Shown: positions 33,690 to 36,841 of the stretch, piece by piece | Position numbering within the stretch: position 1 is the stretch's first letter | Layout of the letters: each line of letters starts with the position of its first letter | NCBI RefSeq assembly: GCF_001553565.1 | Contig: NZ_CP014228.1 | Location: 868,001-932,000, forward strand | Origin: Actinomyces radicidentis | Lineage (GTDB): Bacteria > Actinomycetota > Actinomycetes > Actinomycetales > Actinomycetaceae | DNA length: 64,000 nt | Reading direction: 5' to 3' | Notes under the pieces: generated by a model | The model's input: the letters and a program-made list of their open reading frames with translations, nothing else | Told to the model about the DNA's origin: nothing | The model's database searches: none | Made by a program: the position numbers and the translations under genes

Positions 33690-34676
33690 TCAGACGCGGG
33701 GGTCGATGACGGCCGCGAAGGCGTCGACGAGGAGGTTGGCGACGATGACGAAGGCGGCGGCGACGAGCGTGACGCCCATGACGACGGGGACGTCGGTGGT
33801 GGAGACGGCGTCCATGAGGAGGGCGCCCAGGCCCTGCATGGAGAAGACGCGCTCGGTGATGACGGCGCCGCCGAGCATCCCGCCCAGGTCGAGGGCGAAG
33901 TAGGTGACGACTGGCAGGGAGATGTTGCGCATGACGTGGCGGCCGATGACGCGCTTCTCGGGAAGGCCGACGGCGCGGGCGGTGCGCACGTAGTCCTCGC
34001 CCATGTTCTCGAGCATCTCGCCGCGCACCATGCGGGCGTAGACGGCCGCGGAGATGAGGGCGAGCACGCACCACGGCAGGACGAGGTGCCAGGCCCAGTC
34101 GACGGGGCTGTCCGTGAGGGCCACGTAGCCGGAGACGGGGACCATGTCGAGGGTGAAGCCGAACAGGAGGATGCCGAGCAGGCCCAGGAGGTAGGAGGGT
34201 GCGGAGACGCCGAGGACGGTGGCCGTCATGATGGTGCGGTCGAGCCTGCTGCCGCGCTTGAGGGCGGAGACGACGCCGGCGGCGACGCCGGTGACGAGCC
34301 AGAGGACGGCGGCGCCGATCGCGATGGAGGCGGTGACGGGCAGGCGGGCGGTGATGAGCTCGGTGACCGGCGTCGACAGGCGGAAGGAGTAGCCCAGGCA
34401 GGGGGCGGAGCAGACGATGGCGCTCGTGCCCGAGCCGTAGGTGCGGCCCGCGACGATGCCGACGAGGTAGTGCCAGAACTGCGTGTACCAGGGGTCGGAG
34501 TAGCCCATGAACTCGCTGGCCCGCTGGAGGTTCTCCGCGGTGCAGGGCTTGCCGCAGGCGAGGGCCGCCGGGTTGGACGGCCACAGCGAGAAGATCGCGA
34601 AGGTGATGAAGGCGATGAGGACGAGGACGAGGACGGTCTGGCCGAGCCTGGAGATGAGGAAGCGCGCGCGGTTCAT
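33690..34676 (-). CDS. ABC transporter permease, DppB type
   Basis: A 328-aa inner-membrane permease with about six transmembrane helices, starting MNRARFLISRLGQTVLVLVL. The BPD_transp_1 cytoplasmic loop is YVRTARAVGLPEKRVIGRHV (near residue 230), the EAA loop that docks the ATPase. A 55-residue periplasmic loop after the first helix (CGKPCTAENLQRASEFMGYS) is typical of DppB-type subunits. Its ATG overlaps the stop of the DppC-type gene (ATGA), giving equimolar permeases. Confidence 0.92.
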   Translation of the reverse strand: MNRARFLISRLGQTVLVLVLIAFITFAIFSLWPSNPAALACGKPCTAENLQRASEFMGYSDPWYTQFWHYLVGIVAGRTYGSGTSAIVCSAPCLGYSFRLSTPVTELITARLPVTASIAIGAAVLWLVTGVAAGVVSALKRGSRLDRTIMTATVLGVSAPSYLLGLLGILLFGFTLDMVPVSGYVALTDSPVDWAWHLVLPWCVLALISAAVYARMVRGEMLENMGEDYVRTARAVGLPEKRVIGRHVMRNISLPVVTYFALDLGGMLGGAVITERVFSMQGLGALLMDAVSTTDVPVVMGVTLVAAAFVIVANLLVDAFAAVIDPRV

Positions 34677-35755
34677 CGGTTCTCACCGGTCCTGGGGTCG
34701 AGGGCGTCGCGCAGGCCGTCACCGAAGAGGTTGAAGGCGAGGGTGACGAGGAAGAGGGCGAGGCCGGGGAAGAGGAGGTACCAGGGGTCGGTGCTCACCC
34801 AGGTGACGGCGTTGCCGATCGAGCGGCCCCAGGAGGGGGTGGGGGCGGTGACGCCGACGCCGAGGAAGGACAGGGCCGCCTCAGCGGTGATCTTGCCGGG
34901 GATGGAGATCGTCGTGAACACGATGATGGTGGCGACGAGGTTGGGGAGGACCTGGGTCGTGAGGACGTGCCGGCCGCCGGCGCCCATGGCGCGGGAGGCG
35001 CCGACGAAGGTGCGGCCGCGCAGCGCCAGGGTGCGGCTGCGCAGGACGCGGGCGGTGGACGGCCAGCCGAGGATCCCGATGATGAGGATCATGACGAGGA
35101 CACGCGGGGCGGAGGCCGGGATGATCGCGGAGATCGCGATCATGAAGACGAGGTGGGGAAAGCCCAGGGTGACGTCGGTGAGCCGGGAGACGAGGGCGTC
35201 CCACCAGCCGCCGACGTAGCCGGCGGACAGGCCCAGGAGGATGGCGATGACCATCGAGAGGATGGTGGCCCCCATGCCGATGGAGAAGGAGGTGCGGGTG
35301 CCCTCGACGACGATGGCGAAGAGGTCGCGGCCGGTCTGGGGCTCGACGCCGAACCAGTGCTCGGCGCTCACCCCGCCCAGGGGGCCGGCGGGGACGCCGG
35401 AGGGCTCCAGGGCGTCGAGGTGGTAGCTGTAGGGGTCCACGCCCGCGGCCCGGGTGATGAGCGGGGCGAGGAGGGCCACGAGGGTGGTCAGGATGATGAT
35501 GACGCCGCCGAGGACGGCCCAGCGGTCGCGGCCCAGGCGTCGCAGGACGTTGCGCCAGCCCGTGGGTCGCTGCGGGCCGTGGGCCCGGTCGGCGGGCGCG
35601 GGGCCGTCGGCGGGCTCGGTCGGCAGCCCGGTGACCACCTCGGCGAGGAGGGTCCCCTCGGCGGGAAGGGTGGAGGCGGCGACGGCCGCGGCGCGCTCAG
35701 GGGCGTCGGTCGCGTCGTGACGCGGGGAGGGTGTGTCCAGGGAGGACGGGGCCAC
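34673..35755 (-). CDS. ABC transporter permease, DppC type
   Basis: A 360-aa permease, first structural gene of the operon, read from GTG 35755 with GAGG seven bases upstream. The first 70 residues are a hydrophilic Ala/Pro-rich extension; then GRDRWAVLGGVIIILTTLVA is the first helix of the OppC N-terminal region and RGRTFVGASRAMGAGGRHVL is the EAA loop (about residue 240). The sequence PQTGRDLFAIVVEGTRTSFS is conserved in DppC/OppC proteins. A cysteine-rich leader peptide lies 63 bp upstream with competing hairpins between, so expression is probably attenuated. Confidence 0.92.
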   Translation of the reverse strand: MAPSSLDTPSPRHDATDAPERAAAVAASTLPAEGTLLAEVVTGLPTEPADGPAPADRAHGPQRPTGWRNVLRRLGRDRWAVLGGVIIILTTLVALLAPLITRAAGVDPYSYHLDALEPSGVPAGPLGGVSAEHWFGVEPQTGRDLFAIVVEGTRTSFSIGMGATILSMVIAILLGLSAGYVGGWWDALVSRLTDVTLGFPHLVFMIAISAIIPASAPRVLVMILIIGILGWPSTARVLRSRTLALRGRTFVGASRAMGAGGRHVLTTQVLPNLVATIIVFTTISIPGKITAEAALSFLGVGVTAPTPSWGRSIGNAVTWVSTDPWYLLFPGLALFLVTLAFNLFGDGLRDALDPRTGENR

Positions 35756-35777
35756 GGTGGCACCTCACGGGTCGGGC

Positions 35778-35799
35778 GAGCGCGGCGCGCTCACGAGCG
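35778..35799 (-). promoter_or_regulatory. Mutually exclusive hairpins between leader peptide and ABC operon
   Basis: On the minus strand CGCTC (35795-35799), GAGCG (35788-35792) and CGCTC (35778-35782) follow one another. The central GAGCG can pair either with the upstream CGCTC (2-base loop) or with the downstream CGCTC (5-base loop). Such a choice, placed between a Cys-run leader and the first gene, is what an attenuator or a translation-coupled switch needs. The stems are short, so this needs folding analysis. Confidence 0.45.
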
Positions 35800-35818
35800 A
35801 ATGGGTTGGGAGCTGTCA

Positions 35819-35854
35819 TCAACGACAGCAGCAACAACACACTCGCTTGGCCAT
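35819..35854 (-). CDS. Poly-cysteine leader peptide (11 aa)
   Basis: The frame ATG 35854 to TGA 35819 encodes MAKRVCCCCCR, five consecutive cysteine codons (TGT TGT TGC TGC TGT) and a final Arg. It has a strong ribosome site, AGGAGG, ten bases upstream, and lies 63 bp before the GTG of the DppC-type gene. Cysteine-run upstream reading frames that sense cysteinyl-tRNA are known ahead of sulfur genes in mycobacteria and other actinobacteria. By analogy, stalling at low cysteine would raise expression of the ABC operon, implying that it imports cysteine-containing peptides, cystine or another sulfur source. A GCACCG/CGGTGC hairpin (35880-35893) stands just before its ribosome site. Confidence 0.72.
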   Translation of the reverse strand: MAKRVCCCCCR

Positions 35855-36000
35855 GCGACCTGGACCTCCTGGATGACGGGCACCGGGCGGTGCTCCTGCG
35901 AGGACGCTAGCAGGACGGTCGCGAGCCGAACGAGACCCAGCCGTGATCTGAGACGAGGCTCTCAGGAGGCGACCGGCGGGAGCGAGGCCGGGTCGGGCAC

Positions 36001-36129
36001 GCTCTCGGGCGCGGCGGCGCCGGGGCCCGGCCCTCAGCCCTGACGCCGCAGGTACTCCTCGACCTCGTCGAACCAGCCGCTCAGCGCCGGGTCCGCGTCG
36101 CGGACCTCGGCCAGCAGGGCGCGCCCGGC
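36001..36129. repeat. 129-bp direct repeat, left copy (truncated gene 3' end)
   Basis: Identical to 37625-37753 except for three positions, at a fixed offset of 1624 bp. The right copy holds the stop and last 31 codons of the helical-repeat gene; the left copy keeps the same reading frame (minus strand, ...LSGWFDEVEEYLRRQG then TGA at 36034-36036) but is cut off at 36129, so it is a 3' fragment without the rest of the gene. One mismatch is a synonymous Arg codon change. Confidence 0.9.
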
Positions 36130-36292
36130 AGACGGCCCAGCCGCCAGGGGGCGACCAGACGGCACGTGCTCGACGCGAGAGGCACGAGCGCCATATGATG
36201 TGACAGTGCTCACTCAAGTTCTCGACGGCTGACCGCTTTCCAGACAGCCCCAGTGACACACCTCCACACCCCCAATGAATCGAGGTCGACCG

Positions 36293-36841
36293 ATGACGCT
36301 CCGAAAGCCCGCAGTTCTCCTCATCGCTATCGCGGCATTGTCTCTCGAATTCCCTACAGTTGCCCACGGATCTGAGTTAGGGATCTCACCTTCACAAGCA
36401 ACGCCAGCACAGCCCACTCCCCTCGCGACACAACCTCGCGACGGATCCTCTGATCTCGTCGAGTTCGCATCACGAGAGAACTCACTCGACTCAAGGGCTT
36501 TCGCACTGTTCGAGACAATCCCACAGTCCCCGCATCGCTCAGGGGCAGATGTCTCGAGCCACTCATGCTGGCGCACAAGCGACCCAGAACTGCGCAGATC
36601 CGCAGCAAAGGTCACCTCAAAGGTCGAGGTCTTCTCCAATGGGCGATGGGTCACGAAGGCAGTCGGGACCAAGACCGTCTATCAAGGCTGCGGGGGAGGA
36701 AAGGACGCGGTCGCACGGACCCCCTGCCACACCGGATCGGCCCGCTACAGGTGGAGGACGAGGGCCGAGGTGGATATCGTGGGCTGGGCCGACGATCCCA
36801 CCTGGAAGACGCGCGAAACCACGTTGCAGTGCCGCCCGTGA
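36293..36841 (+). CDS. Small secreted protein of unknown function
   Basis: A 182-aa protein with a classical signal peptide, MTLRKPAVLLIAIAALSLEF then PTVAHGSE, cleavage expected near residue 28. The mature part has a Pro/Thr-rich linker, then SCWRTSDPELRRSAAKVTSK, GRWVTKAVGTKTVYQGCGGG, and four to five cysteines (about 89, 134, 146, 180) that could form disulfides. ATG 36293 was chosen for GAGG nine bases upstream. Its GC content is visibly lower than its neighbours, and it lies between two copies of a 129-bp repeat, both hinting at acquisition by transfer. TATGAT at 36194-36199 is a candidate -10 box. I do not recognise the family. Confidence 0.65.
   Translation: MTLRKPAVLLIAIAALSLEFPTVAHGSELGISPSQATPAQPTPLATQPRDGSSDLVEFASRENSLDSRAFALFETIPQSPHRSGADVSSHSCWRTSDPELRRSAAKVTSKVEVFSNGRWVTKAVGTKTVYQGCGGGKDAVARTPCHTGSARYRWRTRAEVDIVGWADDPTWKTRETTLQCRP

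Follow-up and report, generated by a model that had tools for sequence, protein, structure and literature searches.

On the minus strand of the window, the whole 64,000-nt stretch of the Actinomyces radicidentis genome analysed here (contig NZ_CP014228.1, positions 868,001 to 932,000), lies an operon for an ATP-binding cassette (ABC) importer of the peptide type and, in front of it, an 11-codon frame, MAKRVCCCCCR, with a run of five cysteine codons. A preliminary description of this DNA had picked out the frame, its AGGAGG ribosome site and its position 63 nt before the first gene of an operon with the order dppC, dppB, two substrate-binding protein genes and an ATPase gene, and had proposed that it is the leader of a cysteine-responsive attenuator. 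The sequence confirms the frame, the site and the spacing, the 63 nt lying between the leader stop codon and the GTG start of the permease gene at 35755, and the operon has the claimed order, with permeases that resemble OppC/DppC and DppB, a pair of family-5 binding proteins (identical in 357 of 561 alignment columns) and a fused ATPase (Table 1). The element is very probably a cis-acting, ribosome-mediated cysteine attenuator that controls the importer operon, because the genus keeps its Cys codons and because leaders of this type also precede the cysteine synthase gene cysK and a second importer.

The codons of the leader, on the minus strand from 35854 to 35819, are ATG GCC AAG CGA GTG TGT TGT TGC TGC TGT CGT TGA. 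The frame is probably not a leaderless one, since a ribosome-binding site precedes its start; a −10-like element lies 50–58 nt upstream of the leader ATG, and TAnnnT, mostly as GCTAnnnT, is found within 102 nt 5′ of the leader in 22 of 24 orthologous loci, at variable distance and as a raw count. Relatives show, by eye, GC hairpins 5′ of the leader similar to the one in Table 1. A 182-codon open frame that overlaps the leader is probably not a gene, since GC content at third codon positions (GC3) is 0.61 in its upstream part, unlike the 0.96 of the permease gene. Runs of four Cys codons occur at three places in the whole 3.05-Mb genome, and the two others look by eye like coding sequence in another frame or strand. 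No Rfam family matches above its gathering score in the window, and positions 35600–36300 contain no terminator-like site with a T run, that is, no GC hairpin followed by a U run before the gene.

Table 1. Coordinates of the leader element and of the importer operon in the window.
Feature	Position	Strand	Basis or remark
Putative extended −10-like promoter element TGCTAGCGT	35904..35912	−	Implied transcript start ~35898
Hairpin GCACC/GGTGC in the 5′ untranslated region	35880..35893	−	Sequence and fold of the implied transcript
Leader ribosome-binding site AGGAGG	35865..35870	−	Sequence
11-codon leader MAKRVCCCCCR*	35819..35854	−	Kept in 24/24 genus orthologues
P1, 5′ strand GCGAGTG (codons 4–5 and preceding base)	35840..35846	−	Pairs with 35797–35803
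P2, 5′ strand GCTGTCG (last Cys codon, start of Arg codon)	35823..35829	−	Alignment fold
P2, 3′ strand TGACAGC, directly after the stop codon	35812..35818	−	Alignment fold
P1, 3′ strand CATTCGC	35797..35803	−	Alignment fold
P3 hairpin GAGCGC/GCGCTC (35792–35787/35783–35778)	35778..35792	−	99.1% of counted cells paired, 5 pairs
Permease ribosome-binding region GTGAGGTG	35761..35768	−	GAGG invariant in 24 sequences
OppC/DppC-type permease (P0001), GTG start	34673..35755	−	PF00528, PF12911
OppB/DppB-type permease (P0002)	33690..34676	−	PF00528, PF19300
Family-5 substrate-binding lipoprotein 1, 560 aa	31912..33594	−	PF00496; start chosen by eye
Family-5 substrate-binding lipoprotein 2, 558 aa	30206..31882	−	PF00496
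Fused two-domain ABC ATPase (DppD-DppF type), 572 aa	28488..30206	−	PF00005, two stretches

Cysteine leaders in Actinomyces

Of 49 genomes of the genus, 24 carry an ortholog of the permease at E ≤ 1e-60, and in all 24 a short Cys-bearing leader stands before it. Most of these leaders have the form MxxR(M/V)...CR*, ending in Arg in 23 cases and in Leu in one (L034). Across the 24 leaders, 90 of 114 core codons are Cys codons (TGT 58, TGC 32), and at least three are present in 23 of the leaders; TGT and TGC occur at the same positions, indicating that synonymous change is present, so the conserved Cys run with synonymous variation that the preliminary description had proposed to look for is found within the genus. 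The remaining core codons encode Arg, Trp, Ser, Tyr, Gly and Thr, and the use of TGT is high beside the GC3 of the permease gene.

Outside the genus the family contains seven more distant permease homologues, with 47–58% identity. In the six whose upstream regions were fetched, no such leader lies within ~600 nt upstream; some distant homologues have short upstream frames with at least two Cys codons, mostly apparently inside the upstream gene. Orthologous operons lacking a Cys frame, which the preliminary description had named as grounds for refuting it, were thus not encountered within the genus (24 of 24 have one), whereas such a leader was not seen at the six distant homologues. A covariance model of the element (R1), run on 213 genomes of the family under strict filters that lose weak matches, matched in Actinomyces only, and a second model (R2), run under equally lossy filters on 396 genomes drawn evenly from a larger group of the order, matched in Actinomyces and at five further weak sites that look coding-like by eye. 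At the sensitivity of the R1 and R2 searches, the element as modelled is confined to Actinomyces.

The R1 model recovered, in addition to the 24 sites (class 1), a second set of leaders in the genus (class 2), such as MRMRMCCCCCR, which precede an operon for a GlnQ-type amino-acid ABC importer with a GlnQ-type ATPase and a family-3 binding protein, and with two permeases at the locus examined, L069. Among the 41 genomes carrying the class-2 binding protein (E ≤ 1e-50), 35 have the Cys leader. All NCBIfam scores of this binding protein are below cut-off. Two side observations concern these operons. In 22 of 34 of them (for example L070 and L083), ACGAGGNNCTCGTG covers the ribosome site and the start codon just before the ATPase, and a small hairpin formed by it could hide the ATPase start; and at G034:C1:1816849-1817828 the match to the family-3 binding protein is split into two parts that lie in different frames.

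Cysteine synthase itself is preceded by leaders of this type. Both cysK and cysE are present in 48 of the 49 genomes. All but one of the 48 genomes with cysK (47, the exception being G047) have a Cys leader ahead of that gene, 46 of them found by script and one, in G046, by inspection. Examples are MMATSLMRAMSCSCCQCR, from the same genome as the window, and MTVGNVMCAMSFCCCQCR. The cysK leaders differ in length and sequence, and their ends are again Cys-rich, mostly C-x-C-R; specifically, at least three of the last eight residues are Cys in 39 of the 46 scripted leaders and at least two in 45. Since the criterion itself seeks Cys-rich ends, we ran it on the antisense strand, where it found 1 of 48, and on 20 block-shuffled sets, where it found 0.1 of 48 on average and at most 1. 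Two features of an amino-acid attenuator are present: a short frame with a run of Cys codons, and a leader type that precedes a cysteine-synthesis gene. As observations in their own right, 40 of 48 genomes (for example at L280 and L269) have a GC-rich inverted repeat of the type [GC]TGCGCG...CGCGCATGC 5′ of cysK, which sits after the leader where read by eye; and genomes G006, G008, G016 and G042, which have no peptide importer at E ≤ 1e-60, keep the cysK leader.

The three classes are tied together by a shared codon pattern, RTGTGYTGYTGYNNNTGYCR (RTG-(TGY)3-NNN-TGY-CR), which has 41 matches in the 49 genomes, compared with 1 for the reversed pattern. Eight of the matches lie before the peptide importer, 32 before the GlnQ-type operon and one before cysK, and none lies elsewhere in this exact form, looser forms being free to occur elsewhere. 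This signature, common to a cysteine-synthesis gene and found in its exact form nowhere else in the 49 genomes, is the strongest single argument for the attenuator.

Several leaders weigh against it. L024 has two Cys codons only; the class-2 leader has decayed to two Cys codons in two genomes, that of the window and G011; and none was seen in G006, G008, G016 and G042. In addition, the genome of the window carries a further Cys leader, MPMGMHCRCCR (L065, ~1600–1635), which stands before a sugar-type permease and at first sight suggests a sugar target. This leader follows a SpoU-type methylase gene (PF00588), and in L122 (G000:C1:2194000-2208000) the SpoU gene with its leader is separated by a sugar-type ABC operon and other genes from the GlnQ operon, which lies ~7 kb beyond the leader and retains the decayed leader MSALTRRCRGCRLHH. 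A crude motif places the end of a SpoU-like gene 5′ of 6 among 34 class-2 leaders, and inspection by eye shows one in the four leaderless genomes too; a rearrangement is therefore possible. The sugar importer may have come under a Cys leader.

A conserved fold over the Cys codons

The fold of the 24-sequence alignment contains three stems: P1 (GCGAAUG/CAUUCGC), which wraps the Cys codons, P2 (GCUGUCG/CGACAGC), which joins the end of the leader frame to the bases past its stop codon, and P3 (GAGCG/CGCUC). Three further long-range pairs of the fold were left out. Over the 24 sequences, 98.9% of 450 cells in P1, P2 and P3 are paired, compared with 28.8–49.0% in slid versions; P3 is a gap in L031. 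When class-1 and class-2 leaders are taken together (58 distinct rows), 91.4% of cells are paired, one P1 pair changes from A-U to G-C in 13 rows, and the double-change cells outnumber those of all 500 shuffles, in an alignment in which some class-2 rows are misaligned or without P1. With kinship among species ignored, the stretch of Cys codons is a better match for the 3′ flank of its own species than for those of others, and the two strands of P1 likewise fit better within than between species, with 0 of 20000 permutations as good in either test. The last codons of the cysK leaders can also pair downstream, 26 of 46 pairing best at the same 12-nt offset, and their longest helix averages 6.6, compared with 5.6 for shuffled flanks.

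Other observations count, with the decayed leaders above, against the attenuator: only 2 of 19 pairs are changed on both sides within the 24 sequences, each in one sequence; the number of double-changed pairs across classes is no better than that of shuffles (159 of 500); and the permutation tests are uncorrected for relatedness among the species.

The preliminary description had based its attenuator on a different structure, in which CGCTC, GAGCG and a second CGCTC form two mutually exclusive stems. As a cysteine-responsive attenuator the element gains comparative support, from the kept Cys codons and from the leaders before cysK and the second importer, and it loses those stems. Specifically, the first stem (CGCTC, 35799–35795, with GAGCG, 35792–35788) leaves a gap of 2 nt, too little for a normal hairpin loop, and the first CGCTC is missing in relatives, L012 and L013 among them, so that the exclusive-stem switch was rejected; its second half, GAGCGC/GCGCTC, is conserved and is the P3 hairpin. 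The conserved stems overlap the Cys codons, and no exclusive partner structure was found for them.

It is conceivable that the pairing itself is what selection maintains, as a conserved RNA or DNA structure such as a repressor site GCTGTC-N6-GACAGC, with the Cys codons as mere by-products. All 24 leaders have TGT as their last Cys codon, which is paired in P2, and changes from Cys to Arg (TGC to CGC) could keep pairing with G in RNA. However, Cys codons are also kept beyond the last position, with 66 of 90 at positions −3 to −6, and the cysK leaders keep a Cys-rich end in spite of their different length and sequence. We regard this explanation as very unlikely.

In the attenuator that we favour, the 11-codon leader would be translated from its own ribosome site. 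With charged tRNA-Cys plentiful, the ribosome would traverse the Cys codons, terminate and leave. The freed leader RNA would then form one long hairpin, closed by P1 between CAUUCGC and the codons that precede the Cys run and by P2 between the last Cys and Arg codons and the bases past the stop codon, and the importer operon would stay low. With Cys-tRNA scarce, the ribosome would stall on the Cys run and block P1 and P2, and the operon would be expressed. Translation of the leader, the stall and this direction of control are inferred, and the final step would act on translation start or through Rho rather than through an intrinsic terminator.

How the fold could reach the operon was examined by simulating a ribosome on the Cys codons. 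The mean unpaired fraction of the permease ribosome site is 0.20 in both states over the 24 species, a result that tells against the favoured mechanism. The simple release of this site by one stalled ribosome, tested twice with unchanged means (0.20 and 0.20), was accordingly rejected, and a simple site-masking switch is unsupported because the stalled ribosome left the site unexposed. Given that there is no T-run terminator and no release of the site, the switch would call for queued ribosomes, Rho or coupling.

In one version of the attenuator, the leader start would pair with the permease ribosome-binding region, and the site would be opened by a stalled ribosome together with another waiting behind it. 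The leader start is better matched to the permease site of its own species (−19.9 kcal/mol) than to those of other species (−17.0 kcal/mol), with 0 of 20000 permutations as good, and L027, L028 and L030 show complementarity of 9–10 bases between the two. When a queued initiating ribosome is added to the simulation, exposure of the site rises in 13 or 15 of the 24 species and falls in 6 or 7, but the means (0.24 and 0.27) are not significant (p 0.08 and 0.06), and a single stalled ribosome brings no average change. Moreover, in A. radicidentis itself the cognate fit equals the non-cognate mean (−17.0 and −17.0), and in a longer fold stalling lowers the exposure of the site from 0.41 to 0.27. 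Site masking is thus possible, although we lean against it.

In the other version, Rho would load on naked RNA once the leader ribosome is gone and would halt transcription, and the stalled ribosome or the fold that it releases would prevent this. The lack of an intrinsic terminator agrees with such a route, which the relevant passages of PMC1262725 propose for the mycobacterial Cys leaders and for those of P. acnes and B. longum. Against it, most of the leader region is predicted to be folded. We consider Rho a candidate for the final step, and a doubtful one.

Substrate of the importer

A close named system is the glutathione importer GsiABCD: among NCBIfam models, the ATPase scores best with GsiA and both binding proteins with GsiB, and the OppC permease has GsiD in second place, yet the scores are far below the curated equivalog cut-offs (GsiA 483 of 1077 bits, GsiB 107 and 92 of 594, GsiD 221 of 484, GsiC 174 of 463). 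None of the NCBIfam models listed is passed by either permease or either binding protein. Among solved structures, the best relative of binding protein 2 is 2wok, an oligopeptide-binding protein of clavulanate biosynthesis, and the fourth-best is 1uqw (YliB), which we take to be GsiB.

The ATPase gives a signal in another direction, which has to be set against a cysteine-related substrate: as a whole fused protein it passes the models for the nickel-importer ATPases NikD (424.6, cut-off 318.7) and NikE (352.4, cut-off 332.55), and a dipeptide subfamily model. The likely reason is that the scores of two domains are summed, since neither half, scanned by itself, passes any of the 25 best models listed or either Nik cut-off. 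The other components of the nickel importer NikABCDE are not recognized either, with NikA at 69 and 76 of 393 and NikB and NikC also below cut-off, and for both binding proteins the GsiB model outscores the NikA model, all scores being below cut-off.

These comparisons also bear on whether the leader is a metal- or redox-sensing, Cys-rich arrest peptide rather than a sensor of Cys-tRNA. Copper-responsive leader peptides are an example of Cys-rich leaders that sense a metal, and family-5 importers include nickel systems, to which the passes of the whole ATPase would point. Against this stand the presence of the same leader type before cysK, the preference of the binding proteins for GsiB over NikA and the failure of the ATPase halves at both Nik cut-offs, and we judge a metal or redox sensor to be most improbable.

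With the Gsi scores far below cut-off and the Nik passes vanishing in the halves, the substrate claim rests mainly on the leader. With similar leaders before cysK and an amino-acid importer, the peptide importer very probably contributes to the supply of cysteine. Its cargo would be peptides that contain cysteine, cystine or related compounds, for example glutathione-like ones.

Taken together, the data suggest, as a tentative picture that we hold at a little less than an even chance, a genus-wide regulon in which Cys-codon leaders link cysteine synthesis to both a peptide and an amino-acid importer, with a switch undescribed for Cys leaders, in which the Cys-Arg-stop end is paired downstream and the Cys run lies in a stem, in which ribosome position rather than a terminator would set expression, and by which the peptide importer would scavenge cysteine-bearing peptides.

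Comparison with known cysteine leaders

The substrates of oligopeptide importers are rarely readable from sequence, and a Cys leader gives a functional label to both the peptide importer and the GlnQ-type importer. It also defines a testable cysteine regulon in Actinomyces, and the genus offers about a hundred natural leader variants (24 + 35 + 47), with varying paired RNA, for work on the mechanism of actinobacterial Cys leaders.

In the best-ranked matches of the openly licensed literature, we found no description of Cys leaders in Actinomyces, nor of a Cys leader before a peptide importer with a fold of the P1/P2 type. Cys leaders as such are known elsewhere in Actinobacteria; judged by those matches, a Cys leader before a peptide importer, with the RNA fold of Actinomyces, appears to be new.

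Three known systems are closest. A prediction of 2005, in the passages of PMC1262725 that treat these leaders, places Cys-run leaders before cys operons of Mycobacterium and Propionibacterium acnes and before cbs of Bifidobacterium longum, and reports no conserved hairpins there that could be terminators. The Actinomyces leaders resemble them as short frames that carry Cys codons close to their stop, that precede cysteine genes and in which no terminator hairpin was seen; unlike them, as those passages describe them, the Actinomyces leaders have conserved P1 and P2 stems and two ABC importers as targets besides cysK. The polycysteine leaderless short open reading frames of mycobacteria (Canestrari et al. 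2020, as summarized in parts of PMC13236596 and PMC9094748) are described as cysteine-responsive attenuators; they share the short frame with a Cys run, whereas the Actinomyces frame has a ribosome-binding site and importer targets. Finally, the uORFC-8-2 motif of Rhodobacterales, according to its entry in PMC8632094, lies exclusively before cysS and has a terminator stem with a U run. Like the Actinomyces element, it holds an upstream frame with tandem Cys codons inside a stem; unlike it, the leader region of A. radicidentis shows no U-run terminator.
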